Below are positions 33,921 through 58,800 of a DNA stretch of 64,000 nucleotides, piece after piece. Source of the stretch: Calothrix brevissima NIES-22 (GTDB lineage: Bacteria; Cyanobacteriota; Cyanobacteriia; Cyanobacteriales; Nostocaceae); assembly GCF_002367995.1 (NCBI RefSeq), contig NZ_AP018208.1, positions 1 to 64,000 of the forward strand, read 5' to 3'. A model generated the notes under the pieces. That model saw only the letters and a list, made by a program, of their open reading frames with translations. It was not told the origin of the DNA and searched no databases. The first letter of the stretch is position 1. The number at the start of each line of letters is the position of its first letter. The translations under genes and the position numbers were made by a program.

Positions 33921-34889
33921 TTAACCTTCACCAATAGCAGTAACAGTGGCTTGACCATTAAAGATAATATTACCTTTAACATCAATTGAGCCAAATAAAG
34001 TTGAACTTCCATTATAAGTAAAGTTTTTCGCAGCCAGGAACGTTCCCCAAGTATTAGCAGAGCCATTGTAAGTCAAATCTCCTTGCGAAATCACCTGCAA
34101 ATTGCTGCTAGAATCTACTGTCAATGTCGCCCCATTAAAAGTAATATTACCTTGGCTACTACCATTTGCAAGTATTGTATTGCCTGCAAACCTAGCGCCA
34201 CCATTCATATTAATCGAACCAGAAACCAACACCGACAAATCCCTAGCCTGTACGGTTGACAAATTGACATTACCATTGTTTGTCACCAACACGACATTAT
34301 TGAGATTATGTCCACTGCCGTTGAAATTGATATCTCCTTGTTCGACAATAATCACATAGTTGTTCAGGCTGACATTAGCAGGGATATTTAGTCCTCCTCC
34401 TGTCACCCGCACCACAGTAGGATTGCTTGCAGTACCAGAAGGTGGAAACTTCTTCAACCAATCAGCAGCATTGTTCATCGAGTTTTGCTGAATATTGAAA
34501 GTGAGTGTAGTTGCACCCGTCGGAATTCTTCGTTCTAGTTCCTGCTGTTTTACTGATGCATAAGCTGGCACAATAATAGTCTGCGGCTCGACGATTTGTG
34601 GAGGAATTAAGTTGGCATACTGATTGCCATTAGAAGCATTACTAACCGTATACCCTGGTGCTACTGCCACAGCATTTTCTATGAGAATCAGCTTACCTTG
34701 AGTATCTCGCATAGGATTACCTTGAGCATCTCGTTTTACAGGTAGTACGGGATTACCATTGATATTGAACCCCTTGGCTGCATAAATTAATGTATCATCA
34801 TACACATCAAGGGAATTGCCGTCAAAATCGCCACTACCATTGATAGTGACTGTGCCTTCGGCTCGAATCGCAAATCCATCAATTCGGTC
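33921..34889 (-). other. Giant protein: beta-helix-like C-terminal domain
   Basis: The last about 320 residues contain regular Gly/Asn-rich turns such as IIVEQGDINFNGSGHNLNNV, VLVSGSINMNGGARFAGNTI and FGSIDVKGNIIFNGQATV. This pattern resembles bactofilin-like or polymer-forming beta-helices. It is the last part of the protein, where an anchoring or export role is possible. Confidence 0.6.
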
Positions 34890-37800
34890 ATCGTCAACAA
34901 TGATACCGAGTCCTTGAGCATCGCCGATCGCCGCATTGGTGGCGTTACTCAGATTAATCGCGAAGGTTTCATCAGCACCCCGGAGGCGATCGCCTATTAC
35001 CTCAACAATAATTGTTTGACTGGTTTCACCAGGAGCAAAGGTGAGCGTACCGCTAGTTGCTTTATAATCACTACCAGCGATCGCAGTACCATTAGCGGTG
35101 GTGTAGTCTACAGTTATTGGTTTAGCACTGGCTACTGACAGACTGACTGTAAAGCTCATGTATGTAGTGCCATTGTCACCTTCAGTAATAGTTTTGTCGT
35201 TAATCGTCAGTACAGGTGGTGCATCGTTGTCTAAAATTGTTCCTACTGCTTGAGCATCAGTAATGGTAGCATTGCTAGCATCACTCAAGTTGAGGAAGAA
35301 GGTTTCGTCATATTCATCAGTAATATCGCCTAGAACTTGGACGGTAACGGTTTTGGTTATTTCTCCTGGTGCAAAAGTGAGTGTACCATTGGTGGCGGTG
35401 TAGTCAGTTCCGGCAGTTGCAGTACCATCTGCTGTAGCATATTTTACTGAGATGGGTTTGGCGCTGGCTGCATTGAGGTTAACGGTGTAGGTGAGTGCGA
35501 TCGCGCCGTTATCTCCTTCAGTGATAGAGCGATCGCCTATCGTGATGCTTGGTGGTACATCATTGTCCAAAATTGTCCCCACACCTTGAGCATCAGCAAT
35601 GGTAGCGTTGGTAGCATCACTCAAGTTGATTTTGAAAGTTTCGTCAAATTCATCAATGCGATCGCCATTTATTGCCACTGTAATTGTTTGCGTAGTTTCA
35701 CCAGGGTTAAAGGTAATCGTTCCAGTTGTGGCTAGATAATCGCTGCCTGTAGTCGCAGTGCCGTCAGCGGTGGCGAAGTTAGCAGTTACAGTCCGCAGGC
35801 TGGCTTCTGATAAGCTGGCAGTGAATACGGCGTAAGCGTTGCCATCATCGCCTTCAATGAATGAGATATCGTTGACAGACAGTGTAGGTGGTTTATTCAC
35901 TGTCACAGTTAATGTAATGTTGGTTACGGCACCGTCATCATCGGTGACAGTTAAGGTAACGTTGTATGTACCGTTACTATTGTAGATATGGGTTGGGCGT
36001 AAAGTGCCAGCAACAGTGTTATTATCGCCGAAGTCCCAAACAACGGTATGGGTATCTAATATACCAGGGTCGGTAAACTGTCCCCAGAAGGCGACTGTTT
36101 CGCCAATGTACATAATTTGATTGTCACCTGCTGCCACTGTGGGTGCAACATTGTTTACCTTGGTGGAAAGTGTCTTTGTTGTGGAAGCGCCGTCAGAATC
36201 GCTGACAGTCAGGGTGACGGTGTAAATGCCGTTATCTACAAAAGTGTGATTGACATTTTGTCCAACTACTGCATCTGTACCATCGCCAAAATTCCAAGTG
36301 TAGGTAAGGGTATCGTTGCCTGGATCGGTAGCAGTAGCGCTAAAGTAAGCTTTTGTGCCTTCATCCACATTTGTATCGCCGGAAATATCGGTGATAGTGG
36401 GGCCGACATTGTTGACAAGTACTCTCAGGGTATCTGTGGTAACGCCACCGTCGTTATCCCGGACTGTGAGAGTAACGTTGTAGATGCCGTTATCTGCATA
36501 AATGTGCGTTGGTGTCAAGTATGATAAGGCAGGGAGTGTCGCAGTGTCGGGATTGTATTCTAGGGTGGTATCGTCGCCAAAGTCCCAAATGATGGTGTGG
36601 GTGTCAAGAATACCAGGGTCGGTGAAGTTACCGTTGAATGTGACTGCACTACCTTCATCCGTTGTGAAATCTGCGCCTGCGTCTACTCTGGGTGCGACGT
36701 TGCTGACACTTACTGTTAGAGTTTGCTGGGTGGCTGCACCATCCGAGTCTTGTACTGTCAGGGTGACTGTGTAGTTCCCGTTGTCGGCGAAGATGTGATT
36801 GACATTTTGTCCAATTACTGCATCTGTACCATCGCCGAAGTTCCAGGTGTAGGTAAGCGTATCGTTGCCTGGATCGGTAGCAGTAGCAGAAAATGTGGCA
36901 GTAGCACCTTCATTAATATTAATGTCACCTGCAACATTAGTAATGGTGGGTGCGACATTATTCACGCTTACTGTCAGGGTGTCGCTATTTTCACCACCGT
37001 CATTGTCTTTGACTGTGAGTTTGACAGAGTAAACGCCGTTGTTGAAAAATACATGGTTGGGGGTGAGTGTACCTTCTGCTGTTGTACCGTCGCCAAAGTC
37101 CCAAGTGATGGTGTGGGTATCAAGAATGCCAGGGTCGGTGAAGTTACCGTTGAAGGTAATGGCAGTACCTTCGTCAGTTGTTAAGTCTGCGCCTGCGTTG
37201 ACTCTGGGTGCGACGTTGCTGACATTAACGGTGAGGGTTTCCTGGGTGGCTGCACCATCGATGTCTTGTACTGTCAGGATGACATTATAAGTGCCTTCAT
37301 CGGCAAATACATGGCTGACATTTTCACCTGTCAGTGTAACACCATTGCCAAAGTCCCAGGTGTAGGTGATGGTATCATTGCCTGGGTCGGTGGCTGTGGC
37401 TGTGAAGTTGGCTGTTGCACCTTCATTAATATTGGTATCGCCAGAGATGTTGGTAATTATGGGTGCAGCGTTGTTGACAAGTACTGTCAGGGTTTCGCTG
37501 GTAATACCGTTACTTGTATCGGTAACGGTGAGGGTGACGGTATAATTACCATCTTGGGCGAAGATATGGTTGACTGTTTGCCCAACTACTGGGTCTGTAC
37601 CATCGCCGAAGTTCCAGGTGTAGGTGAGGGTATCATTACTGGGGTTAGTAGCGGTGGCTGTGAAGTTGGCGGTTGCACCTTCATTAATATTGGTGTCGCC
37701 GGAAATTTCGTTGATAATTGGGTCAATGTTGTTGACGGTAACAGTCAAGCTGTTGCTGTTAGTAGCGCCATCATTATCGGTGACGGTTAGTGTGGCAGTG

Positions 37801-40800
37801 TATACACCATCTTTATTATAGGTGTGGGTGGGGTTGAGGATGCCTGTGGCTTTCGTGCCGTCGCCGAAGTCCCAAGTAATTGTATGGGTATCTTTGATAC
37901 CTGGGTCGATGAAGCTACCGTTGAAGGTAATGGCTGTACCTTCATCTGTTGTGATGTCTGCGCCTGCTTGAGGTATGGGGGCAATGTTGTTGACATTTAG
38001 CAACAGTGTTTCTACGGTAGATGCACCATTTGTGTCGGTGACGGTGAGGATGGCGGTGTAAGTGCCGTTGTCGGCGAAGGTATGGTTGACTTGTTTTCCG
38101 ATGACGGGGTTGGTATCATCGCCAAAGTTCCAGGTGTAGGTGAGGTCATTACCAGGGTCAGAGGCAGTGGCGCTAAAGTTGGCTGTTGTACCTTCTCTAA
38201 TATTTGATTCTACTGTAATGCGGTCGATGGTGGGGGCGATGTTGTTGAGGGTGATGGTGACTGTAGCTTCGTTTGAAATGGCGTTATTGTCAAGGACAAT
38301 GTAGGTGAAGGTATCTGTGCCGACGAAGGTGTTGTTGGGGGTGTAGGTGAGGGTGCGGTCATTGTTAATAATGATGCTACCGTTAGTTGGGGCAGCGCCT
38401 AGTTGTACTGTGCCTTGTGTGCTGTCATTAGCTAGGACGTTGATGGCTACGGGTTGTGCTTGGTTGGTGGTGGCGGTGTCGGAGTTGGCGATGGGGGTAA
38501 TGAGGTTGTCGTCAAGCAGCATGACGTTATCGATGATGATTTTAGCATCTTTTGCACCGAAGCCCAGGAGGTCGAAGTACAGAGTGGCGGCGGTTCCAGG
38601 GGTGATGCTGCTGATGTCGATTTTGACGGTGCGGGGTGTGTTGAGGGCTATTTTGTCGCCGGAGGTGTTTGCACCTGCTATCTTGACTTGATTGCTGAAG
38701 TATGCATTGCCGGATTGCTGGAGGTTGAGGAGGGAGTCGGTTTGGGTAAGTCCGGTGGATGTGCCGAGTAGGGGGGTGAGGGTGCGGGCATCGAGGAGGG
38801 CGACTTCAAAAGCGTCGCTGGGGGCGAAGGTGTTGGTTCCCAGGTGGGTGTCAAGGATGGTGAATTGCAGGTATTTGGCGTGTTCTGGGATGATAAAGGA
38901 TTGAGTGAAGTTGCTGTTAAAGGGGGAGTCTTCGGTGAGGACGGCGGCAGAATTGAGGATGGTGGCTGCACCGCGTGTTGTCCAGCCAAATTCGGGTTTG
39001 GTGGGGTCTGTTTGGTCGAAGTTGCCGTTGGTGATGTCGGCTAGGAGTATTGCGGTTAGCGGTGCTTGCAGGGTATTCCCCGACTCTCCCCCTGTCCCAC
39101 TCCCCGACTCCAAGGAACGGATGGCGGTGAGCATTTGCAGGTTGAGCCATGATGGTAGTTTACGCACGCCTGGGGCGAGGGTGTTGTTCATCAGGTCGTA
39201 GGGGTGTACTTTGGAGTCGAGGTGGCTGCCGTCTCTTGTGAGGGTGGCGGTGAAGTTGTTGCCGATAAAGGTTTTGGTGTTGTTGATGGTTTGGATGTAG
39301 CGGTCGAAGCCTGGGTTGCCGGAGATTATACCTAGTAAGTGTCCGGTTTCGTGGAGAATGGTGGTGAGGAGGTCGTATTTGCCTGCGGCTTCGCCTGTGG
39401 TGGCGCGGTAGGCTGTGTCGGTGAGGGAGGTGGTGAATTCGGTGTTTTCCCAGGGGGTGGGGTCGATGAACCAGCCGATTCCGTTAGCGTCGTTGTCGAT
39501 GAGGATGGTGCCACCGTTGGGGCGACCAAGGGAGTCGTATTTGGTAATTTGGGCTTCGGCTAGTTGTCCGGTGGGGAGGTCGGTGATTTGAAAGTTGATG
39601 TTGAAGGTGGGGTCGGAGAGAGTAGACCAGAGGTTGAGTGGGTTATCTTTATATGTATTATTTGAGGCGGAAGGTAAATTATGGATGCTGAAGAGTTGCT
39701 CCAGCGATATACTGCTGGGGAGCGAGATTTCAATGGGGTTGATTTGAGTGGGATTAATTTGAGTAGAGATTCCGCTTTGATTCGGCAATATGAGGTTGGA
39801 GAAAGCGCTTGGTCTGGTAGAGCTAATCTTAGTGGTATTAACCTCTGTGGGGCTAACTTGGAATTGGCTAACCTGGAAGGGGCTATCTTGATTGGAGCTA
39901 ATTTGATTAGTGCTAATTTGACTGGTGCTAGATTGGATGTTGTTCGGTTGAATGGAGCTGATTTGACTGGTGCTAACATCAGGAATGGTAAATTCCGTAG
40001 TGCCAGTCTGCACCAAACCAACATGAGTGGTGCGATCTTGGAAGAGGCAGTTTTGACTGATGCCGAATTGATAGGCACGCTTCTGAAAGGAGCCAAGCTC
40101 AGATGGGCTGGTTTGGAAACTGCTAGTTTGATTGAGGTTGATTTCAGAGGCGCTGACTTGAGAGAGGTGTCGATTGGACCTGCTACTGTGGAAAGATGTA
40201 ATTTTAGTAAAGCCAACTGGAATAGAGGAGATATCTGGCACTGCCACTTCTTTGATTGCAATATGACCAATATCAGTTTTAGGAAAGCGAGATTGATTGA
40301 AATGAGATTTGTTCGTTGTAATTTGACTGGTGCGAAACTCAGGGGAATTGAAATGGGCGATGCCACATTTGAGGAAGTTATTCTCCCAGATGGGAGTCGA
40401 ATCAACAAAGCTACTGATTTCTTCCGTTAAGCTATCTAAATTTGGGGAAGAATCCGCTAAGAGATTAGCAGATGGCAAACGCTCAAATATTTGATTTTTA
40501 ATATCTTCTTTATCTGGCGAATCTGGTAGATTAGATAAAAATTTGTATTTGGGTGATATCTCCTGCGAGTCCCCATTAAGCAGGTCTTCAATGTTTTGGA
40601 TTGATTGCTTCTGATATGTAATTCTTGAATCATTTCCTAAGTAGACACCATAGTGAGCGTACTCTGGCAGTGCAGAATTTTTATCTTTCGTAAGAACTAC
40701 CTTCCATAGACCAAGTGGGTATTGGATTAAAGGATCTAAATTTGAATTAGGTGAAATGCTTGTGTAAGGACGCATTAGAAAATCATCAGTATACCCGTAA

Positions 40801-43800
40801 CCACCAGCAAAAACGTAAGTTTCTAACGAATCTGTTTTTGGTGACTTATTTATTACATCCCTCACTTGTTTTTCAAGATTTTCCCAAACATCCCGATTAT
40901 TATTACGTTGTTGCGGTAATAAATTAGTTGTCAAAAAGGTAGCATAATAGTCTTTCAAATTTCTGTTTCTATCAGCTGCCGGAGCCATGTGTCCTCGGTC
41001 TATATCTAATATAGATTCAGGTATTGGCTGGTTATTTTCATTCAATTTCAGAGAACCATCTAGGTTTGTTTGATAAATAATATTTCCTAATGCATCTTTT
41101 TGGATGTTTTCTACTAGTTGACCGTTTCTATTTCTAAGATAAAGTGCTTGATAATCATTATCTTGTACTTTGTATGCTCCTGTGTTGTTAAGGGACGGAT
41201 CTTCAGCAAATCCACTAACTCCAGATTCTTTTCTTGTAACGTCACCAAGCCAAGTTTTATCTAGTTTCCAGGCAACCCAGTTAATAGTGTTCTTCTGAAA
41301 ATTATAGGAAAGTGAATACTGCGGTTTTTCAATCAGATAATTAGTGTCAAATTTAGGATCAGTTCTTGCCTCAGTAGGATTCCCCCATTTGAGAACCTCA
41401 CTCTTAAAGAATACGTTATCTATATATACTGGGTCGCTACCTTCTAACTTCAGTTTTAGTGTTGCAACTTTACCTCTCAAGGACGGAGATACATTAAAGT
41501 AAAAACTTTCAAAGCCAGTTGAACCATAACCAATAGTGTACTCATCATATTCATAGTTACTAGGTATATTAACTTTGTACGTTGAGCCATCTACTCTGGT
41601 TCTCGTAACTTTTTCTGTTTGAGGATCAGCTTCTTCTAGCGAAATTTCTCCTATTTCTATGTTGTCAGGTGAATTTGTATCCTCTAGATAAACTTTAAGT
41701 CTTCCACCATTGTTCAAGGATGATTGTGGAACATGAATATCTAAACGTAATACTCCCCAATCAGACACAACAAACTGGTTATGGGTTATCTCACTTAGAC
41801 CATCTCCTAACTTGAGGGCATAATTATTTTGAGAGCGATTAATCCCCAATTTATCCAACTCTCCAGACAAGGCTGGAGCATCAGTAATTTTATTGACATT
41901 AACTAAATACTTTTGCGATGCATTAGTATTATCAGCACCATTATAGAAAGACCAACCAGGGATATCTTGATCTAATCGGGTAGAGATCGCATCAAAATTA
42001 CCATTAAACAGCGTAGGAACAGCATAGTCGCCGCGCATTCTCGCAACAGAAGTATTATCTTCACTAACAAGTGTGCGAGGAGTACTTGATTGAAGCCGTT
42101 TATCTTGACCCCCACCTAAAACTGAATAAAACCAGCCAGTACCAATGCCTTCCCAAGGAGCATTTTGATTATTACTATGATCTAATTCATATCCTGGGTA
42201 AGGTATGTACCATGTCTTACTAGTATTGTTGTTTCTGTCAGCAGGTTCTAAATCCCCTAGTCTTCGGTAAATCGTCTCCCCACCAAGTGAAGGAAGTGTA
42301 CTTCCACTAAGATTCAAAGTGCCAGCATACCAAGCCAAAGTGCGATCGTGAAGACGACCAGAAAGGTCGTCAATACCAAATCCAACAAAATTACTCAAAT
42401 TAAGATTTAAATCTGCACCTGCAATTTCCTGTCCAAGACGAGTATCGGTTTGATCAGAAACTTGAAACTCTTGGTAATAATTATCCGCAAAAGTAATATT
42501 TTCCCAAACTTTAATCTTTGGTTCATTAAGACTTGTGAAATTTATATTTAAAGAAGGCTGCCTGCTGTCGTAAGGATCAATTGTTGTCATTTGCAAATTG
42601 CCTCGAATGACATTGCCCTTGTCATCCAATTTTGCACCACCAGCCAAAGGATAATCAGTCCCTAAACGCTGAATAATCTCATCATTAATAACAGCACCTT
42701 GACCAAAACCTATGAAGTGCAGATATGAATTGAATAGTTCACTTTGATTACGGATTAATTTTCCGGTGTCGTCATATATGCGATTATTACTACCAATACT
42801 ACCACCCAATGTTAAATCTAACCCCACGAGTGAAGCATAGAAAGTATCTGCTGCCGCTTCCGAAAAACCAGAATTGTTTTTGGTTTGTTCTGGTAACATT
42901 TCCCAGCCCGGAAGCAGTACTAAAGATTTACCAAAATACGAATCTAAATCATTTTCATTATTAACTAACGTATTAGTAATAATATTCTTCCACTTACTAG
43001 TGACTGTATCATATTTGAGAATCACACCTTGAGCGTTAGGACTGACAAGATTTGAATCGTTTACATCCAACTGAGCAATATGCCTAGCCATTGCCTCAAA
43101 TTCATTGTCAATATCACTGCCATTTTTCTCAGTACCACGAGTCAGAATCGTTACGCTACTAAATGTGTTACTCTTAAAAGTTGGTAAAGGAGTGTGGAAT
43201 TTACCAATGGCAGGGTCTGGTTCATTATCAGCTTTCACAGCCCAATAATACGTTTGACCAGCAGTTAACTTCCGCTTATCGGTAAGCTCAGACATATCAA
43301 ACAGATCATTGGTACCATATGTACTACCACCATTCCAAGTCCAAGTACCAAGATTATTTAAAGGCTTTGTTAAATCCTTAGTCCAATGGACAGTAATAAT
43401 ACGGTTAGGATTGTAGTCATATAACGCTGGGTTACTTGGTAGCAGTCCACGCCAACTATCTCTTGGTAGCAGTCCCTGACCTTCCTCAAACACGCTAACG
43501 TAAAGGTCTACAGACTGAACATTATTCGGGTCAACAGGAAGAGAACATATATCACCGTCATCATCTTTTTGACCATTAAAATTCCATTTAAATGTAGGTG
43601 TTAAACTTTCTGCATTTTCAACTTTTTCTAAATTTACAAATTGGTGAACTGATGCAGAAGTTAAACCACCAGGATTTGCCCCCCTACCAATAGGAGCATA
43701 AATAGAGCCATCTGGTACGCCAAAGGTAAACTGGTTATACCTCCAATCTCCCTGAATAATCTGGAAGTCTGCGGCAACAAGATCAATTTGTGGATTAATG

Positions 43801-46800
43801 TCGTCAATTGGGACATAAGATAAATCGTTAGAAGTAGCTTGACGCACAGTTAACGGATTGAAAGCAGAACTACCTATACCTCTATCAAAACTGTCAAGCC
43901 AATAATTACCAGGATTCTCTAAAGTAGTAATCATTTGCTGAACATCGAAGGTGAAAGTAGCACCCACGCCATTAGAAGCAACCGTGTTGCCTGCCATTCC
44001 TACACCAGGATAAGAAACAGTCAGAAATTTATCATCGCTGGAGAGTACTACATCATTACCCAATCCCATAGGAATTGGACGAGTAGCAGCGACCAGTTTG
44101 GCATGGTCAGTTAACGGATCTTGAATAATACCAATATTACTGCCAGCCCGTATTCCATCAATGCTTTCAAACCCACTACCAAACAACCTGCCGTTACGAC
44201 CAACAACAAAAGCGTATTTGCCATCTTTTGTAACAGTTGCAGCAATGTTTTCATTGACATCGAAGTAATCGTTTGAACTGCCTAAATTTAAAGCAACGTA
44301 ATTTGTAGTCGCATTAAATGTCAGAGGATCATCATTGTTAATCGTCAGTACACCAAAGCCATGTGCATCATTTTTGCGGTTAGTGAATACAAGTTTGCTG
44401 GGGTCAGAAGTGACAGAAATTCCCTCTAATCCTAAATCTCCCTCAATAGCAGCAATTTGCTGATTCCACTTGCGTGGGTTTTGGCTTGGATTTTTGGGTC
44501 GGTCTTTGGGGTCGATGTTGAAAACGAGAATTTCTCCATTACCAGAAATTGCACCATCAGGAGTAGTAACAAACAGCTTGCGACCATCATTGCTGATAGC
44601 AATTTCACGCAGTCCGTGGGGGGCTGGTTTGAGTGTTGGGATTGTTTGGATAACTTGATTGTAAGTTAGCGAGTTGGTGTTAATATCCAGGACGTAAATA
44701 GCCCCAAGTCGCCCATCAGCAATGTAAGCATAATGATTGTCATGGTCAATGACAATTGAGTGAGGTGAAGCACCTGTTGGTAAATCGATGGGGTCGATGT
44801 CTGCCGTATCAGCTTTGGTGTCTACTTGTTGTAGTGTCATCAAATCAACCAGTGCCACACGACCAGAAGTTTCAAGAGTAACGTAAGCACGAGTACCATT
44901 GTTCGTTGCCGCAATTGCTCTGGGTCTATCTGCTCGGTCAGGTGTGCCTACTGGAATACCAGCTAATAGTAAATCGTTGCTTGTATTGACTAAGTTTGGA
45001 TGTTGGAGATTAACAACGTCGATAGTATCAGCCCATCGTCGTGCTGTTAATTGATATTCAACGCATGTTGGTATTATCTGGATTTCTTTTTCGGTAATAA
45101 GTACAATTTCTTTTTCATCTGAACCATCTGGTCCACTAAGTTCTTTTTGTCGCCGCAGCAAAGAAATTTTTGATTCGCCAAGAACTACGGTTTCAGGAGG
45201 TTTGACAAGAAGTTTATACTGATTATTGCCCAATTTTTCGCTCAAATCGGATAGTATAGTACCTTCGTAAGTTTTACCACCGTAACGAAAGTCTACAATT
45301 AAATCCTCAAAACGGCTACCTTCAGAGTTAGTGTTATTGAGGAAATTACTGCCTGTTAAGCTGACAATAGGCTCATTATTGATAAAGTTTAATTCGGCTT
45401 TTTGTAGCACTGGAGGGGCTAGTGGGTCTGCTTGTCCTCTGGGTGGTGTATCCAAAACTGCATTAAAGGTAGGAATACCCTGTGGATTTAGCTCGACACC
45501 TGCTGTAGTGATAACAGGCAGCCCGATCCTGGGGATTCCCATGACGGTCACTGAGGGTTGATGAAGATATACTGCATAGAGTACTAAGATAGGAAATGCA
45601 GCAGCTGTTGCTGCGATCAAACCTAGCCCAAGTCCAGGTAAGCTGGCTGCTAAGTAAGGGTAGAGGCTGGCAGAACTACCAATTAATGCCGCTGTGGCAC
45701 TTCCTTCAATGGCAGCCGTAATCGCAAGTTCTTTTTGGCTAAATGTAACAGCTGTGTATACGCCAGATTCCACAAAACCAGTTAATGGTGGAGAGGAAGT
45801 ACGAATCATTCCGTCTGTGCCGACTTTGCCTGATTCTTGGATAAGCCAGATTGGATTCCACTGACCAGTTGCGTCAGGTAATTCTCCTTGACGTAGGAAT
45901 AAGACTTCAGTCCCCGCAGTCAGTCCAGTTGGTGCTTTAATTGCTATCTGCGCGGGTAGATTTAGCGAATCGCTCCCTACATCCAACTTGAATGCACCGA
46001 CTGTTGAGAAGACATCTGGCACAGGTGGTGGCAATGTCAGATCATTCAGCGTCAACGGAGTAATATTTACAGTGGCATCATGAGTGAGCGCCCCCTGAGC
46101 TAACATGACCATCGATCCATCACTACCTTCTACAACCCCACCATTACTACCTAAGACAGTTGCACCAAGGTGTGGCTTCTCTACCTGCACTGGTACTACC
46201 GCTTCTGTTCCACCGTAAATTACAGTTACATTTGCTACACCATTATCTAGCGATGTAATTACTCCATCCGGCGTAACACTAATAACATTTGGATTACTGA
46301 TAAAATACCTTGTACCATTAGAAGCTGCTTGCAGTTGTGGTGAATTAACTTCCCCATTCAACCTTACCAACAGTCTCCGGTCAACTCCAACTGGTAGTAT
46401 TACAGCATGAGGGTATAAATCTAGACCATTATCTTCAGCAGTCGCAATATTTAATTGTTCTTGAGTTGTCGGGTCGCTTAATGCACCCACTCGCATTACA
46501 GTAAATGCACTAATCCCATTCCGCCCAGCACTCAACACCGACACCCCATCACTTAACCCCATCACCTTACCAGCAGACACCGCAGCTACCGCAGTATTAT
46601 CCGATGCCAACTGCAAATACGAGTACGGCAGAATCACATTCTCTTGGTCAACAAAATCCCCAACCACAACCAACTCAGTACTTTCACCCGCATCCAAGCG
46701 TAGTCCGCGCCGTGCAAAATCCAAATTCACCAACGCCGCATTGCTAACATCCACCGTCACTATCGCTGGTGCAGAACTACTGTACCCATCATCAGCAACC

Positions 46801-49800
46801 ACCTCAAAACTCGCTGTTCCCGAATACCCAGCATTTGGTGTAAACCTTGCAGAATGCCCATCTGGAGTAAACGTTACCGTCCCATTCACCGGATTAATAA
46901 CCCGGTAAAAGATGCGATCGCCTTCAGCATCAGTAGCTAATTTATCCAGTGCAATGCTAGTTTCTAAATCAGTATGCGTCAGCACAGATGCTGGTGTAAC
47001 CACAGGCGCACGATTAGCAGTAAACCCATAATTACTACCTAAAATCTGCACATCAGCAGCATTTAACACCCCATCGCGGTTGAAATCGTAAGTAACATCA
47101 TAATTGCCAGAAGCGATCGCCCCCCTTAACAACCCACTATCAACCCCATCAACCAAACCATCGCGGTTAACATCCCCAGCAACAGATACTTGCAACGAAT
47201 ATGCACCATTTACACCACCTAACTGAAGTAAATTCAACCCAGCAGAGGAGACAGCAAACAAAGCAAACGCACTATCAGCATCACTTTGACTAACAATTGG
47301 TGTCAAGCCGCTAATCAACGGTATAGCCGGATTTAGCGCATCATTTACTGACACCGCTAACAGCACAGTACCAGTAGCAGTAGACCGTAATTCAGAATCT
47401 CTCAGACTAAAAGTAAAGCGATCGCTCTCACCCACACCCAGATTTTCATTGATCGTCTTCCCAGTAAACTGCGCCGCACTCCCCAAATCAGCCAACACAG
47501 GCGATAAAAGTGGAGTTGTAGAATAAGCGATCGCTTCCCCTGCTGTACCCGGTGTTCCCGTTGCTAACGTCAGCACAGAAGAGGAATAACCATAACGACT
47601 CGATTCACCAGAAGCAAGATTACGAGCTGAGACCAAATTACCTTGAGTATCATAGCCGTAAACCACCAAACTACCATCAGGTGCAGTAATTTGAGTTAAT
47701 CTTCCAGCAGAATCTTTGACAAAACGCACCGTTTCCCCTGTGGAACTGGTAATCCCGCTATCACTGTAAACCAACCTTGTACCATTAGCAGCAATCTCCT
47801 CAGTCACGCCACCAGCAGAACTCAAATGATAAACAGTACCATCAACAGCAGTCAGCGTATACTCAGCATCAGAGTAACTTCCCCTGCCAGGATTATAAGC
47901 TAGACCCGTTTTCAAGTCATACAAGCGGTTACCAGCCAAAGTCAATTTTGCATCCGCCGACTCAAGCTGATAATTTACTCCAGAATCTGCCACCCAAGCA
48001 GGCGTGTAATATGTAAGACCAGGAATTGTGTGTTTCTGCGGTGCAAAAGTAAACCCAACCCTTTCCCCAGTGGAAGTAGTCAAGTAAAGCCTTGTTCCCA
48101 CACGGAATGGTTCGTAAACACCTAATGATTCCCGCCCAGTTAGTGGTACATTAGTTTGAATATTGGTATCCAGCGTCGCCCATTGCCAACCATTACCAAA
48201 GCTACCGACTTCATCAGAATTGAGAGAACTGTAGGTGCGTATAAGGTTGAGGGTGTAGGGTGTAGGGTGTGGGGTATAGGGAGAAGAAAAGGTGATAGAT
48301 AAATCGCTTTGGGTTCTGGTATAAGCGCTTGGTTTTGTGGGAGTATTTACTTCGACTATTACCTGAGTTGATGAAATGCGATCGCTAATATCACTCGCCC
48401 TCAAGCGTAACTGATAGAAACCATTCTCTAACTTATTGGGGTCAAATTGAGCCAGAGTGCGATCGCTTACCGCACCAAAACCACTAGCCAGCGTCTTATA
48501 TACATTTTCCCCAAAATCAGCGATTTCCAGCACCCAGTTATCAAGATTGACATCGCTAACACTACCAATAATATTAGTAACATTAGTTAACTTCGCCCCA
48601 TCCAAACCAGGTGCAAAAGCAACTATGGGTGCAGACAAATCTTGTGGATCTCGCACCTTCACTACAGTACTATTGTGACCAACACGACCATCAGCATCAG
48701 TAGCAGTAACATCAACAACCAAGCGCCCAGGCGTAGTTGGGATAATCTCAATTCTGCCTTGAGTATCAACAATTACAGGATTTCCATCAATAGTTGCACT
48801 CAAATTAGCGATCGCCGCTAACCCATTCGCGAGAGTCTGCACTATTACCTTTTGTCCGGGAACTGCGGGGAAACTGGGAGTAAGGTCAAAATTCACAGTT
48901 GGTGGAGTTGGTGAGATCGCCACCCGCACAGCAGATGTCTGCGTTACTGTAATTTCGCCATCACTCACAGCATAAGTTACAGCATAATCCCCAACTTGTC
49001 CGGGATTGGGTGCCCAAGTAAACATTCCTGTCGCCGCATCCAATACCGCACCTTCAGGTAAATTTGCGGCTGTGTAGGTAAGATTTGTGTTGTAATCTGG
49101 GTCAGTACCAACAACTTGAAATTGCAGCTTTTCACCCAACGCCACAGCATGGGGAGACACAGAGATGACTGGACTGCGGTTAACATTGGCAACCCGCAGA
49201 GTCACATCACTCTGACTAGTAGCATTTTGGGTATCTTTGACAGCAAACTTTAATACATATTCACCAGCTTGTTCATAATTTGGCTTCCAAGTAAACTTGC
49301 CAGTGCGCGGGTCAAGTACAGCACCAGTAGGCAAAGAAGAAACAGCCGAGTAAATTAATGAATCATTATCAATGTCTCCCGCCGCCAGAGTAAACTGGAT
49401 GAGGTTATTTTCTTGGGCTGTTTGAATGGGTAACGGTGCTAATACAGGAGCCTGATTTGTATTGTTAACTGTAATTGCGAAAGTTTGAGAACTGCTTCGA
49501 TTGCCATCACTAGCAGTTACACTGATGTTATTGTAAGTTCCCGCCTGGGATAAATTAGGTGTCCAAGTGAGTATACCCTGTACTGGGTCAAGCACTGCAC
49601 CTGGAGGCAGATTGGTTGCGGAATAAGTCAGCGAGTCCCCATCAGCATCACTGGCTGATAATAGCAAATTGAGAGTTTGCCCTTCCGCCACAGAGGAATT
49701 GCTAATTGTTGCCAATACAGGTGTTGTGTTAGCAGTGCGTACAATTAAATTGAACTGTTGCTGACTGACAAGAACTTCATTGGGGTTGCCATTACCACTG

Positions 49801-52800
49801 TCGCTTACAGCAATTGTCACAGGGTATGTATTAATATCAGCAGCAGTCGGTGTCCAACGGAACTGTGCTTCACCATAAATTCCAGTGGGTGTGAGAGTGG
49901 CACCAACAGGCAAACCGCTTAAATTAAAGCTTAAATTATCTTGGTTACGATCGCCTGCTTTAACAATAAATTCCAAAGTCTCACCCACTACTGCAACCTT
50001 GTTACCAATAACAGGTAATATTGGCGGGTCATTAAGTGCATTTACTGAGACTACAAAGGTATATTCATCTGATTGAATGGCATTTGCACCAACGCCATTA
50101 CCATTATCAGTTGCGGTGAGAGTAAAGGAGTAATTGCCGCCATCATTTATACCAGGGGACAAGCGTAAAGTAGCAGTGCGATCGCCATTATCTATAAATC
50201 TCACAAAATCAGGAATACCGTATCCCGCAGATTCTGCTTTCAATTGCAGTACCAAAGAATCGCCATCTGCATCTGTTGCTTGTAATACCAGTTCTTTTAC
50301 TTCACCCCGGTTCAGAGTAATGTTGCTAAACTCGTTAATTTCGGGTGCGCGGTTGCTATTGAGAACAGAAATCGGTACAGTCAGGGAAGTTGCTTTAGTT
50401 ATTCCCGTACCATTGCCATCATCAGTAGCAGTAAAGCTGACATTGTATGTACCTGCACTGGTATACCCTGGTGTCCAGACAAACATTGCTGTGATTGGGT
50501 CAAAAGTAGCACCAACTGGCAAACCAGAGACAGTATAAATAACAGATGGGTCACTACCTTCTAGTATAGTGAGTTGACCGTCAGCATTGCGGTCTTGAGG
50601 TACAAAGCCTGGGTTATCAGGGTCAAAAGCAAAAGCACGGAAGCGGACTGATTGTCCTTCCTGTACCTGCCAAGTACCGATATTATCAAAAATCGGTGCA
50701 GCGTTAGCGTTGAGGACAGTAATTTTGGTAGTTTGGGTAGTAACCGATTCGCCATCGCTGACAGTGAAGGGAATTTCAAACTCTCCTGCTTGGAAGTAAG
50801 CTGGTGTCCACTCAAATAATCCAGTGCGCGGATCTAGGGTGGAACCGCCAGGGAGAAGATTGCTATTGTAGGTGAGGCTTGAAGTCGGAAGTGGGGGAAT
50901 AGAAGCGATTATGTCTGCGTCGGTTGCTTGTAATTGGATGCGGACTTTTTCACCTTCGCGGACAATTTTATCAGCAGGGCGGATGAGGGTGGGTGCTTGG
51001 TTGATGTTTGCAATCAGGATGGTTGCAGTCTGCGTTACTTTTTCTACACCATCGCTGACGGTGAACTGCACATTTTCATATGTACCAGCCGCATTGTAGT
51101 TAGGACTCCAAGTAAGAATACCTGTATATGAATCAAAAATCACACCATTAGGTAGATTATCAGCCCAATATGTTAGTTTGTTGCGGTCAGCGTCGGTTGC
51201 AGAAAGCTGAATTTGTAGCGATTTTCCTTCTGCACCTTTGATAGTAATGGGAGTAGCAGAAGAACTAGAAACTGTTCCGTCAGCAGATGAAACGATAATT
51301 CCACCACTGACAACAGGAGTATTAAATACAGGTTTGTGATTACCACCCACCACATTTAAACTAAACGATTGTGTCGTGTGAGCACCGCGCAGGTCGTATA
51401 CTTGCAAAGTCACATCAGCACTCACTGGACTTTGCTGTGTTGGCGACCAAGTAATTAAACCAGTATTTTGGTCAACAGTCATTCCAGATGGTGCATCATA
51501 TAGCAAATATCCCAGCACCGCACCATCTGGATCGTTAGCTGTCACCTGATAACTATATGCTTGACCCGTATAAGCTGTTAATACAGGATTAGAAGTAATA
51601 ATTGGTGCTTGATTCGGATAAGGAAGCGCATAAATTCCCGGCGTAAACTCCACCCGCAGCGCGTCTGGGTTGTAAACTGTAATTGTATGTGCAGTAGTAG
51701 ATTGGCCTGCCTTGAGGACACCTTGAGCTAAATTATCCTTTAAATCTACCATATATGCCCCAGATGTATCGCGTGTTGCACCTGTCGGGACACCTGTAAA
51801 GTACTGTGCTGGATCGAGTAACAGCATCACTGGTAGCAGTAAGTCATAACTCGCCTTACTGGTAAGAGTGACATCGTAGGAAATTGTTTGATTTTGCCGA
51901 AGAGAACGGGGATTGGTAAACTTAAAGTCTACTAAAGCTGAAAAATCGGAAATTGCTGTAAACTGCTCTTGATAACCACCAGTTAATCCCACCCCAGCAG
52001 TACTCTTGAGATTTTCAGACACCCGCAGTTCATAATGGTCAGGGGTAAGGGTGTTAAAATCCAAAAGTACAGTCCGGGTATTAGCATCGTAACGGACTGA
52101 CTGTGGTGTTAAAGTACCGTTAGCACTTACCAATTCAAAGTTAGCCGGATTGAGAACTGAAGAGGTGTCATTAGCAGCCCCAGCATACATGTCAGAATCA
52201 AAGGTAATGCTAATTGTACCTTGAGGCAAAGCTACAATCGCATCAGGTGCAGGGTTTGTCGCCGCCACTTTCGGTGCAATGACCGGGCTAAATATATCAA
52301 TTTGCTGCGACTGTGAAATTAAAATGCGACCGTCATCAGTGGTTGTGATATTTTCACCACGACTACCACCATTAGCAACTTTAATGTGTTGCAAGGTTGC
52401 TAAATCAACCATTTGCAAACCGCCATTGTTGTTAGAAACAAACAACAATCCCGCCAAGCGGCTACCAACTTTACCAAAAGCAATAGAATCTACAGGCGAA
52501 TCAAACTCAAGCATTCGCTCTGGTTTACCATTTTCATTAAAGCGGACAATATCGCCCCGTTGAGGCCAGGTAGTTGCCCAGAGTTTTCCGTCTGCGTCAA
52601 ATGCTAAACTATCAACACGCAAATCGCTGTAGTGAGTAAAAGTTTCATTGATGGGATTAAAGATTTCAATACCCTTACCCGAAGAAACATAAATTAATCC
52701 CGTACTAGCTTGAATTGCCAGCGCTTGCGTGATACTATCGCCGTACTGATTGACAATTCTGCCTGTTTGTCTATCAAGTTGGAGTAAAGGGCCGCCACCT

Positions 52801-55800
52801 GTAGTTGCCCAGAGAGTACCGTTACTATCTACAGTCATGTCGAAAATCGGATACTCTAAGGTAACAAAAGGAGTCGGTGAATTTTGTCCGTCATTCGGTT
52901 GACCAGTTTGAAGGAAGCGGTACAGGGAACCCCGGTTAGCACCACCGCTAGCTAGTACCGAACCATCTTTAAGAACTGTAATTGCCAAAGGTGCGATATT
53001 AGCATGGCTGGTGGGAATACCCGTAGCAAAAGCTTGGGCAGTGAAGGGACGCAAAACACTGCTAAACTCAGATGGGCGAGTTGTGGGGAAAGCCGCAGGT
53101 ATACCTTGTTTTGCTGCTAGGAATAGTTGATTTGTTGATGGTTCGGGGTTCGGTTGGGGAGGAGTACCTAAATCAGGTTGCGTGGTCTTCTCAACTGTCG
53201 GTAGAGTTCCCAGATTCACCACAGAACCATCATTGGGTGCAGCAATTCCTAAACCTGGTTTTTCTCTATTCCCGGCATTATCTGTCGCTAATGCTAAGAA
53301 TTCATAGGTGTGTCCGGGACGACCAACATAAACACCAGAATTTTCCGTAGTTTGTTGTTGCCAAATCTTAAAGTCCCCAGCATCTTCTGCGACATACACA
53401 GTTACGTGCTTGATTCCAGAACCAGCCGCATCATCAGTTGAGTGCCATTTTACTAAGTAGTCGGAGCCTCCTGCTACTAATGGTGTCACAGTCAGCGCGG
53501 TGGTTGGGGCACTACCATCAATAATGTTAGTAACTCTTGCCGTATCTATGGGGGCAGCAGTGTTGTAAATAACTCTAGCTTCACTAGTAATTTCCGTACC
53601 TGTAGCGCTACCAACTTTGGGGAGGACGGTGTAGCTAACAAAGCCACTACCTGCGCCATTGGCGTTATTGGGTGGTAATAGACCAATATCGCGATTCTGC
53701 ACTACCTCCCCAGTATTGGGATCTATTGCTTGAATCAGCCAAGTAGCAGTGTTAGAAATTACATCTAATCCAGCTGCCACTCTCAGAATAAATCCCTTAG
53801 TGCGGGTAAAGTCAAAGTCGCCAGAGAAAGTACCGCGTCCTGTGGGAATGTGAACTTGAATATCACCCAGACGTAAAGAACCTAACTGGAAGTTGCGCGG
53901 GTCGAGGTCATCATCGAGTTTTGTAACAATTCGCACTTCCCCAACTGTTGTTGCGGCACTGGCTGCATTTTCAAAGCGGATGGTGTAGGGTAGTGCTGTA
54001 CCCAAAGGTATGATGTTTTCTGTACCGTAACCCAATGGCCCAGTAAGGGTAGCCAAGTTACTGACTGTACCAGCGGCGTTGAAGAAACTGCCAAAACTTG
54101 GTGGAGGTACAGTCACGCCTTGCGGTAGTTCCACCCTGGCTTCCCCAAAGGGAACGTAGACGTTAAAGGATTGAACGTGGGTTTTGTGCGACAGTCCCAA
54201 GTCGTATTGTTGCGCGTTAGGAGCCTGTTGTTCTCCTGTTAAACTGGGGTTATGACCGTACCACTTGCGGACTTGTTCAAAGAAGCTGACTAGGTTGTTA
54301 CTAGAGATTATTTGATTGCCCGCCGGGCCTAGTAACAAACCAGTGGCCAGGGTTGCCATTAAGCTAATTACTTGAGGATTTTGGCGAATTGGTGGTGCTT
54401 CGTTTTCCGGGCGCAGCAGTCCTGCTTCTTCTAATGCTGCCAAATATGCATTCGTCCAGGTGTTAGCATCAGCCGCCAGCACAGTCAGTGAAACTGAAGC
54501 TGTTGAGTCTTTGAGGATAGCATCTCGCAACCGCAGTGCTACATTTGTTTGTTGGGCGATGAACTCAGCACGAGTCATTGCCGTTGCTGTGGCTAGGATA
54601 TGGAATTTAAAAGCAATTGCGTCGTCGGGAACGTCCTCTAAACCTTTGGGGTCTTTTGCCAGTTCCGCTTGCAGTCCTGGATAAGTTTGGATGTTGAATG
54701 TGCGACCGACAAAGGAGGCGTTGGGGAAGTCAAGTACGTAGCCTGGTGCTAGAATTTCGCCGTTGGTATTGACATCAGAAATAAGACTGGCCCAAGGTAC
54801 GTCTTGTAAAGTATTTTCCGGATTGCCCCGCAGATTGGAACTGAACTCTGTGTAAGGCAGATTGAAGACATCTGAGTTTGTCCCCAATTCCGGACTGCCA
54901 ATGGAGAAATGTACGTAAGGTGTGTCAATGTTGGTTAAACTTTGTACTGATACACCATAAGTGCCTGCATCTCCTGGGGCGAGGATATTTGGCCCTCCCA
55001 GTCCGACGGTGACATCTGGTTCAATTGCCCGTTCTACTAAATAGCGGTAGGGTACAATTGCCACCCGACCATCTGGATTGATAACTTTGACATCGTAGAG
55101 ACCGTGAGGTGCTTCTGTCAAGTCGAAGATGGCAGTAATTTTCGTACTGTCAATGACTTGGTATCTAACTGGGTTATATTCAGCAATTCCCGGACGTACT
55201 AATTTGACAATTGCCCCTGGCTGGAATTGTGCGCCTAAAATATTGGTAGTGACGTAGCGGCTATCTCCACCTTTGTCGGTGATGACATCAGTAATTTCAA
55301 AGGGTAAGACATCAGCCAACAGGGTGAGGGGTGTGTTGTTGGTAGGTTCAAAGTAACCGCGTACCAAGACGTAGTAAGTGCCGCTTTGGGTGGTGGGAAT
55401 GATTACTGATTGATTTGGCCCTAGTATTCCAGTGTAAGCTGCGTCATAAGCAATACTTGTAGGTGCTTGCTGGTAGCGGACGAATATTTCGTTAGCAGCT
55501 TCCTTAGTATCCGAGTTAGCATTAATTCGTAGGGTTTGTCCAGCTTGGAGATTGATTGCAAATAGTCTTTCAAGTCCGGTACTCAGGGTTGTTTGTTTGG
55601 CTACACCTAACTGTAACTGCTCAACGGTAACATTGAGAGAGTCAGCAGAAGTAGTGCGGTTGTTAGCTTCGTTTTCGGCTTCGTAAACTTGATTGAAGAT
55701 ATCTGGTCTAACAATAATGCGATACTGTCCGGGGGTGGCTGGTGGTAGGATAGCTGCCAGGGTTGAAGTGTATTCAGCACCGCTTGCCAAGTTACCACTG

Positions 55801-58800
55801 TAGGAAACTCGCCCGATGGGACGGTCATTAATATCCCAAACTGCATCAGCAGATAGGTATACTGCATCACTCCACTGACCGCTAGCTGGGTTATCGCCGT
55901 AGTTAGTAACTTTCCAACTAATTTGCACCGATTCGCCAGATTTGGCATTACTGGGGAGGGTAATTTCGTCAACTTGCAAATCTGCTGGCGGTGGTAATTC
56001 TAGCACCAAGGGTTGGAGACTGGGTGTAGCATTGTTGCCTTCATTATTACCTTCAAATACTAGACCACGAGCGCTAGATTGAGGAGCATCGGTGATGACA
56101 AATACGTAGTAGGAACCAACTAAGTCATTGGGCAATTGTAGTGTTTGATTAACTGTATAGCTACTGCCAGCAGTTAAACCTCCAGTATGTTCTACATATC
56201 CCAGATAGCGATCGCTTTGTAAATCTAAAAATCCATCTCTAGACAGATAAATTAAATCGTGCCAACGATTTTGTCTGGTAGGTGTGTTGCCAGTACCTTG
56301 ATTTTCTACTGTGTATTCTATATTAAAGCTTTGTCCGCTGGTGGCGCGTTCGGGGATAATAACTGAAGTTACTTGTAAATCTGGTGGTGGTTGCAATACA
56401 ACTTTCATTGGTGCAGCCGTAATATTGTTACCTTCATCCCGGAATTCAAGCACGCGAGCAAAGGTCGAGTTGCCCTCAAAGCCAAGTTTATTGTATTGTT
56501 GATTAATATTCGAGTCAGTAAATACCAGTAGGTAAAAGTTACCTGCGATGCCATCTGGCAGAGTAATTTGGCTGCTTCCGGTGTAAGATTGACCTTGTTG
56601 CAAGCCGCCGCGCCGAGTAAATTCTCCTAAAAATGTGTCATTGAAGTCTAAAGATTCGTCGCGGGAGAGATAAACGCGGTCGTACCAAGAAGATTCTCTG
56701 GTATCGCGTGTACCTATGTTTTTCACAGTCCAGCTAACACCGAGGGTCTGACCAGATGTGGGTGATGTTTCTCTTACTACCAGATTAGTAACTTGCAAAT
56801 CTGGTTCTTGGTAGATAACAGGAATGGTGGCGCTGCCTAAATTATTGCTTGGGTCTTCAAATACGCGATATTCAAAGCTTTGCCGATAGGAATTGTTATC
56901 GCCACTGTTGGGGATTTCACCTCGGAATTTTTCGGTGTTGCGATCGTAACTGTAATTTGTACTAACGTAGATATAGTATTCGCCATCAATCCCCGCAGGT
57001 AAGGTAATATCTTGCCTTTGGGTATAACTTTCTCCAGTACGCAATGGCTGTTGGGAACTGTAGGGAACGAATCCAACTTTGGTTGCGCGGTTGAGAATAA
57101 AGGTGGGGTCAGGCGAAACCCAAATTTCGTCATACCAGTACCGCGTTAGAGACGAAATATCTGCACCTATATTTTTTACTGTCCATTCAACGGTAGTGCG
57201 TTCTCCAGAAAAGTTTTGTGGTAGAGTTTTTACCTTCGCTACAATTAAGTCGGCTGGCGTGCTGGTGACGTTAGTTTCTGCTGAACGTTGATTATTGTCA
57301 GTATAAGGCCCTTCCCAAATGCTATTGCCATAGTTAGTCTGAACGATGATGTAGCGACCGCTAGCCCCAGGTGTCAGGATAGTCTCAAGCTGTCCAGTAT
57401 AGGTTCCACCAACTCCTAAACTACCATCATGTCCAACGCTACCGAGGAACCACCGTTTAGCTCCTGGTGCGTTGAGTGTGGGACTATCAGATAAGTAAAC
57501 GTTGTCAACCCAATTACTTTGTGCTGTGGCGTTCGCGCCCTGGTTTTGTACTGTCCAGGTAACGCTAAATGGCTGTCCACCCAATGCTTGTGTTGTGGGT
57601 GTAACTGAAGTTACGACCAAATCTGGTGGTGGTGTTAGCAGGATTGTAATTGGTCTAGCTTTGTAGTTATTGTTGTCTAGTTCGTTGGGGTCGTCTGGGT
57701 TGTTATTGATAGATAAGGTATCTTCTAAAACAATATTGTATGCATCCGACCAAGGTGTGATATACCATTCTCCAGTAACTTGGCTGGGTAAGGTGAGTTC
57801 AACTTCTGTTTCATAGCTTTCACCCACCTTGAGGGAACCACTATGCCCGACACTGGTCAGGAGAATATCTTCTGCGCCTCCTTCTCTATTTGCAGGGAAT
57901 GGTCGATTTTTGTCACGAGTCAACCAGATGGTGTCAGTCCAGACTTCGCGGTCGGTTTCGCCAATACCCAAGTTGGTGACGGTGTAGCGCACCTTAATTT
58001 TAGAACCTTCAAATGCAAGGGTGGGCGCAATTACTTGACTAGTCACCAAATCGGCAGGTGGTAGAGAATTGATATTTATCTCAATTGCTTGAATATTGTT
58101 GGATTCTTGGGGATATTCATCAACTTGCCCAGCCGCATCAGTTTGGACAATTAGGTATGCTTTACCTCGGAAATACTTGGGAATTACCAAGGTATTAGCT
58201 TGGGTGCGGTAACTTTCGCCAGATCCTAAGGCAGCTGCATTGCTAAAGCTACCTAAAGACAGGTCATCGTAGCTAATTTTGTTATCTAAAGATAAATAAA
58301 CTCGGTCTTGCCAGTTGGGGGTGGTAGTGCCAACAGTGCCTTCATTGGCAACAACAAATTCTAAGGAGATTGTGCCACCAGCATTAGCAGTTGTAGGTGC
58401 GGTAATAGACTTGACTTGTAGGTCAGGACGGGGAGTCAGGCTGACCAAAAGGTTGTTGGGATTGGTACTGCTAGTGTTGTTATTAATGGCACCATTCTCG
58501 TAAAGAGAATTGCTGGTGTTGGTTTTAACTATAACTTCGTACAATCCTTGAATTGTCGATGGCAGAGTAAACTGTTCAAAGCGGGAGTAAAATTTCCCAG
58601 CTTGCAAACCATTGCCATAATTAAATGTTCCTAAGGAAATTAATTGTTCGCTACCGCCTACTTGTTTGAGGAATACCTGGTCTGTCCAACTACCAACTGC
58701 ATCACCTGTGCCGGAGTTGGCTACTGTCCAAGATATGTCAATTTTATTACCAGATTGAGCATTGGTTGGAGAAGTTACATTGGTGACTGTGAGGTCTGGA

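Follow-up and report, generated by a model that had tools for sequence, protein, structure and literature searches.

Several genes of Escherichia coli (nog1/citC, asa, laoB, ano and pop/ompA) are known to lie wholly or almost wholly within a gene of the opposite strand, an arrangement shared by the locus described here. The antisense embedded genes found so far are typically relatively young, though for many embedded ORFs conservation extends past the genus, and the existence of long, old antisense gene pairs in bacteria is debated, the reported cases being mostly young (PMC7457138, accessible part of the text). In comparison with the E. coli examples, both products are of recognized kinds here, the arrangement recurs in at least 13 named genera, and it carries a strong codon signature accompanied by non-nested controls. 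The question of old antisense pairs thus becomes directly testable, because dozens of loci show traces of codon-level selection on both strands, with such controls at hand.

A second likeness is with the polymorphic toxin systems carrying Tox-NucA, which, in the accessible part of their description (PMC3482391), also combine a large modular protein, a NucA-type nuclease, an in-protein peptidase domain and a neighboring partner gene. The immunity families named there for Tox-NucA are Imm36, SUKH and NTF2, and the word 'pentapeptide' was not met in that part of the text (Zhang et al., 2012, PMC3482391), while the neighbor in the present case is an opposite-strand pentapeptide-repeat (PPR) gene, either convergent or nested. 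The nuclease domain also relates the locus to the NucA/NuiA pair of Anabaena, its closest structures in the PDB being 2o3b and 1zm8, both named Nuclease. Both entries are of NucA, with NuiA included in 2o3b, and NuiA is not known to be a PPR protein. In contrast to the nuclease of this locus, stand-alone NucA-like genes had a PPR gene nearby in 0 of 13 cases, within stretches of 3.2–3.5 kb.

The repeat and the fold of the PPR protein are common to Alr5209, HetL, Qnr, MfpA and AlbG; several PPR proteins bind or protect DNA gyrase (PMC8145042). In the accessible part of that review the words immunity and antisense are absent, and neither a nested gene nor a nuclease partner was met. The literature search, with subscription papers mostly outside it, gave among the matches listed no report of PPR genes nested in giant genes or of PPR immunity to NucA-type nucleases. 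PPR proteins are proposed here as partners of giant-borne nucleases, which, if true, would provide a function for part of a very large cyanobacterial family.

The window, i.e., the whole analyzed stretch of 64,000 nucleotides, contains the following features:

33921..63998, minus strand: giant gene, an open frame of 10,482 codons that runs on past the window end
40521..41366, minus strand: Endonuclease_NS (NucA-like) domain of the giant (NUC), PF01223 E 1.7e-30, with a DRGH motif
39681..40430, minus strand: S/T/Q-rich linker of the giant, sharing its codon register with the PPR gene on the opposite strand
39063..39635 (limits approximate), minus strand: metallopeptidase-like domain of the giant (MP), HExxH at about 39339-39353
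39681..40430, plus strand: PPR gene, 249 aa, predicted beta-helix, without any TTA, CTA or TCA codon
39669..39674, plus strand: Shine-Dalgarno-like GGAAGG, 6 nt ahead of the ATG of the PPR gene

The order in the giant, read along the minus strand, is NUC, S/T/Q-rich linker and MP. The original prediction of a PPR gene lying antisense and in register inside the giant was borne out by the coordinates: the plus-strand ORF is contained in the minus-strand frame and, since 39681-33921 is a multiple of 3, the codon boundaries are common to both. The giant frame runs unbroken across the PPR gene as a Ser/Thr/Gln-rich stretch, as had been claimed, with TSQISTNQISSNQ present in its translation. The embedded gene indeed encodes an A(N/D)LxG-type pentapeptide protein, with tandem A(N/D)LxX repeats and a PF00805 match at E = 4e-39. 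The ribosome-binding site attributed to it is in place, with GGAAGG 6 nt ahead of the ATG, but its strength is moderate (SD match length 4). Taken together with the comparisons below, the locus is probably a nested antisense pair with dual coding, in which one strand encodes the PPR protein, a proposed partner of NUC, and the other the S/T/Q-rich NUC-MP linker of the giant; the latter would be translated through the linker.

The plus-strand frame behaves as a gene also in the related loci. PPR starts were ATG in 37 of 40 cases, and a Shine-Dalgarno match of at least 4 preceded 38 of the 40, compared to 19.2 in shuffles; the test covered 39 named loci (broken-MP ones included) plus the window, and picked the best start per gene, which favors the real set. 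The model of the window PPR protein was a beta-helix with a pLDDT of 82.8, for which PPR structures and designed solenoids led the structure search and HetL had the best E-value, while the Alr5209 family was the only NCBIfam model above its cut-off. For the giant segment the model was of low quality (mean pLDDT 40.1, with 21–37 over the linker and mostly 30–42 over MP), so a disordered linker is only weakly supported by it, because MP scores poorly too.

The absence of codons giving antisense stops was complete in the window gene. Neither TTA nor CTA occurs among the 30 Leu codons of the window gene and TCA is missing from its 15 Ser codons, in agreement with the original counts. From the codon frequencies in 40 other PPR genes of this genome, 17.4 antisense-stop codons were expected and none was seen, giving a probability of none of about 10^-10, so that the avoidance is marked, as had been suggested. 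The PPR family is spread throughout this genome according to the profile search, and 43 other members, taken from the best 150 of 301 candidates with weaker genes missing, were compared: 41 of them contained in-register antisense stops. The two stop-free exceptions, C1:2681494 and C1:2682566 (L018), adjoin short remnants of the downstream domain of the same giant and have S/T/Q-rich antisense ORFs. The openness is therefore tied to the nested arrangement and not to PPR genes generally, since the great majority have stops and the exceptions adjoin giant pieces. A 478-codon PPR gene of the same genome (L043, C5:47256-52780; C5:50086) has one half of 218 codons open in antisense and 21 stops overall.

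The same picture was obtained outside this genome. PPR genes of other genomes that were not picked for nesting had antisense stops in 19 of 19 cases (4 to 17 each), and opposite-strand, non-nested PPR genes near a giant-borne NUC had them in 29 of 29 (2 to 42 each), amounting to 384 stops per 7,837 codons; the latter 29 are stop-to-stop frames that include a few pre-start codons, one PPR per NUC, two of them at 863 and 1,436 bp from NUC and one cut by a contig end. Neither the PPR family nor the vicinity of NUC explains the openness, while nesting does, because all these controls have stops. Chance is rejected as its cause on these counts. It might be supposed instead that a PPR subfamily merely prefers T- or G-ending codons, so that the antisense frame is open by accident. 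Such a preference would fit the predominance of TTG among the Leu codons of nested genes (57%), the stop-free state of 13 copies next to a broken MP, and the already low GCA (15%) and high GCT (49%) of the non-nested NUC neighbors; as a sufficient cause it is contradicted by the stops in all 29 of those neighbors, and it appears very improbable also from the codons discussed below.

The codons of nested PPR genes were compared with the giant frame of the same locus in a stratified analysis of 23 loci, namely those with a giant frame of at least 700 codons and not among the loci with antisense stops; the other codon controls pool genomes. Codons read as Cys in antisense were avoided: GCA made up 5 of 378 Ala codons (1.3%) in nested genes against 1611 of 5481 (29%) in the same giants (z -11.7), and ACA 5 of 217 against 1862 of 7916 (z -7.1). 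The codons with antisense Tyr, GTA and ATA, were lowered as well (z -4.6 and -4.1), as were GAA (antisense Phe, z -3.5), weakly CCA (Trp, z -2.0), and also GCG (Arg), GTG (His), GGC and CGC (Ala). GCT (antisense Ser) was favored, with 263 of 378 nested against 1956 of 5481 in the giants (z +13.2), and so was GGA (antisense Ser, z +7.7), along with ACT and AGA (Ser), GGG (Pro) and TTC (Glu).

Against the non-nested PPR neighbors of NUC the effect was smaller than against the giants. GCA was at 1.3% in nested genes versus 15% (121/800), ACA at 2.3% versus 23% (89/393) and GCT at 70% versus 49%, while GGA and AGA hardly differed (43 and 39% nested versus 39 and 36%). A-ending codons thus drop where the antisense meaning is Stop, Cys or Tyr, and less so for Phe (GAA) and Trp (CCA), which speaks against the codon preference mentioned above; GGA and AGA, with antisense Ser, do not fall, which is at odds with a general loss of A-ending codons. 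Since nested PPR codons shun antisense Cys and Tyr and favor Ser, the antisense product appears to be under selection for a hydrophilic make-up with little Cys and Tyr, and the comparison supports selection at the third codon positions of the PPR gene. Lys and Arg, too, are scarce in the linker. Of 50 pooled genes that are or once were nested, 47 lacked any antisense stop, and GCA accounted for 1% of 889 Ala codons; from the pooled set of 53 loci L211, L222 and L234 were dropped as unsure, and seven were without a counted PPR candidate frame. A second antisense frame is open over the window PPR gene (39560..40408, minus strand, 282 aa, K/S/A/P/L-rich); it may be intrinsic to PPR codons because similar frames are present over some non-nested PPR genes (L085).

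In giants of other cyanobacteria the NUC-MP site again holds an antisense, in-register PPR gene, most often not the one seen here. A scan of named cyanobacterial genomes with the MP alignment yielded 53 loci, of which 28 had an intact MP, 24 a broken MP and one was at a contig edge; matches of a profile built largely from open members were excluded from the openness counts. An in-register antisense PPR gene with no stops was present in 26 of the 28 intact-MP loci, spanning at least 13 named genera, although L219 offers only 35 PPR codons before the contig end and in L212, L220 and L221 no more than 32 to 43 codons of giant frame lie upstream of the PPR gene. The other two, L204 (isolated, beside a transposase-like ORF) and L211 (contig end), had neither a PPR gene nor the S/T/Q segment in the available sequence. 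Among the 24 broken-MP loci 13 had an in-register PPR gene with no antisense stops, three were in register with 1, 5 and 1 stops, two were out of register and six were without a PPR gene. The contig-edge locus was in register and stop-free. Openness apparently either needs no full giant or outlasts it, because 13 broken-MP loci are stop-free and the frames of L212, L220 and L221 are short.

Among the giants examined, none carried the S/T/Q segment without a PPR gene, the case that would have spoken against the original proposal; in G154, where MP is present and PPR is absent from the site, the S/T/Q segment is absent too. The maintenance of both frames, as initially suggested, is therefore supported both by this search and by the own-genome codon control, and the comparison points to a complete overlap of two opposite-strand frames that are both open and under selection. 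A single recent insertion of the PPR gene does not account for the arrangement, which is present in at least 13 named genera. A second NUC with an antisense PPR gene was found elsewhere in the giant G041, with other domains following it.

Annotated plasmid loci were nested in 7 of 7 cases, four of which were new to the set: two plasmids of Gloeothece verrucosa and one each from Aulosira laxa and Anabaena cylindrica. Among the strains that carry a nested locus are Anabaena cylindrica PCC 7122, Stanieria cyanosphaera PCC 7437 and Calothrix sp. PCC 7716. Six of the seven were counted, with no antisense stops, while L302, where one giant CDS is annotated across the PPR gene, was judged nested by eye. 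Eight plasmid records reached 80% coverage, of which the one left aside (H3) is apparently the plasmid of L203. In the incomplete PLSDB gene table the overlap is represented by the PPR gene alone in Nostoc sp. TCL26-01 and by the giant alone in Stanieria cyanosphaera PCC 7437 (L300, L303); annotation tends to show only one strand at such overlaps.

The two strands differ in what is held constant. In close pairs the third position of the PPR codons was the most variable in 6 of 6, and sense identity exceeded antisense identity. Conservation of the linker at the sequence level was sought in the same pairs and not found: four-fold divergence in the PPR gene matched that of the giant's flanking parts in its range, and no constraint on the sequence of the linker is therefore visible. 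These comparisons support the PPR amino acid sequence as the conserved product, with the antisense strand being held only to composition. They also bear on the possibility that the giant is the sole gene and the PPR frame a by-product of an S/T/Q repeat on the opposite strand. The S/T/Q segment does have the same five-residue period in the nested giants examined, but the variable third positions of the PPR frame, its start codons and SD sites, the occurrence of similar PPR genes that stand by themselves close to the same NUC and have no antisense frame, and its persistence in L241, L245, L246, L249 and L251, all with a broken MP and an antisense frame that contains stops or is not in register, make this extremely improbable. 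Another possibility, that the antisense ORF persists for a small protein of its own even after loss of the giant, would account for the stop-free antisense frames in 13 of the 18 PPR-bearing broken-MP loci; it is nevertheless quite improbable, given no linker conservation beyond composition and given that three such loci gained stops and two are out of register, while recent escape from giants could explain the remaining open copies.

The window NUC belongs to the Endonuclease_NS/NucA group by its profile match and DRGH-type active site, and its G137 and H138 are invariant in a 20-row alignment; 3 of 10 giant NUCs gave no match to the simple [DN]xGH pattern. In the same alignment the HExxH residues of MP, H684, E685 and H688, are invariant, while MP had no Pfam match and only a weak NF038122 score (28.3 bits against a cut-off of 80), and it is possibly an undescribed peptidase family. 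PADLOC gave no match for the locus. Wherever a nested locus had 150 or more codons of frame upstream, NUC was present (29 of 29).

In non-nested giants an opposite-strand PPR gene lay within 600 bp of the NUC end for 27 of 32 NUC domains, none of them nested, where split domains were merged by hand and at least two pairs are near-duplicates. The 32 domains came from 23 of 26 stretches, 20 of which were picked from matches to the nuclease region and not to PPR, plus six earlier ones. For the remaining five NUCs the PPR gene was farther off (L090, L287), on the same strand only (L089, L294) or lacking (L294). An effector domain with an adjacent partner gene, a feature of polymorphic toxin-immunity systems, is thus seen in NUC and PPR. 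PPR genes occur several in a row, mostly downstream of NUC-tailed giants, in L282, L283, L286, L299, L085 and L092, recalling multi-immunity arrays.

The identities of NUC and PPR were weakly correlated over the 26 nested loci (rho 0.25, Mantel p 0.007), and those of MP and PPR were not (rho 0.02, p 0.41). All four pairs with a PPR identity of at least 0.70 also had NUC at or above 0.70, with MP near 0.60 in three and one same-genome pair alike throughout. Conversely, when pairs were ranked by the likeness of MP, 12 of the top 13 had NUC at 0.26–0.43 and PPR at 0.28–0.43. In 21 convergent loci the NUC-PPR rho was 0.28 (p 0.004), and the segment upstream of NUC also correlated with PPR (0.21, p 0.021); the covariation is partly expected from adjacency. 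From this pattern, NUC and PPR may form a cassette that is inserted into different giants, the breakpoint lying close to the conserved start of the PPR gene.

On these grounds the PPR protein may tentatively be paired with the nuclease as its cognate partner, most likely inhibiting it inside the cell (immunity protein), at a little less than an even chance. A passenger of the nuclease cassette that serves some unrelated function in the cytosol, such as the regulatory one of HetL, is a possible explanation to be taken seriously, if not a favored one: PPR proteins are varied in role, HetL and the Alr5209 family head the structure and family matches, and linkage alone can produce covariation, while the specificity of the linkage for giant-borne NUC and its absence beside the 13 stand-alone nucleases argue against it. 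A passenger is compatible with dual coding and conflicts only with the immunity part.

For the dual-coding pair, the ancestral state would have been a giant ending in the nuclease and followed directly by a convergent PPR gene, which is the usual arrangement in the other giants examined. The giant would then have been extended through the PPR complement into MP, and both frames kept thereafter by selection on the third bases of PPR codons. Sequence comparison supports that the giant needs only an open, hydrophilic linker poor in Cys and Tyr, which A(N/D)LxG repeats, read in antisense as roughly S/T-x-Q-I/V-S, give almost free; a PPR gene and a giant would thus be unusually easy to overlap, because the antisense of PPR repeats is naturally S/T/Q-rich. 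A more specific and rather doubtful version is that the giant is read through the complement of the gene for its own immunity protein, with PPR as the inhibitor of NUC, and that the overlap acts as a genetic lock during cassette exchange, often on plasmids. Effector and immunity would then be inseparable by deletion without breakage of the effector, because the PPR complement would be a required linker of the giant.

Besides the nested gene, two further plus-strand ORFs are antisense to the giant in the window, at 36723-37184 (153 aa) and 37266-37790 (174 aa). Similar small transposase-like ORFs (MEYRRAK.EGGTFFFTVVTH) are located beside the escaped copies of the PPR/MP unit in the same genome (L018, 981-1562) and beside the isolated MP copy of Nostoc spongiaeforme (L204, 9181-9756); such an ORF may help to spread the PPR/MP pieces.
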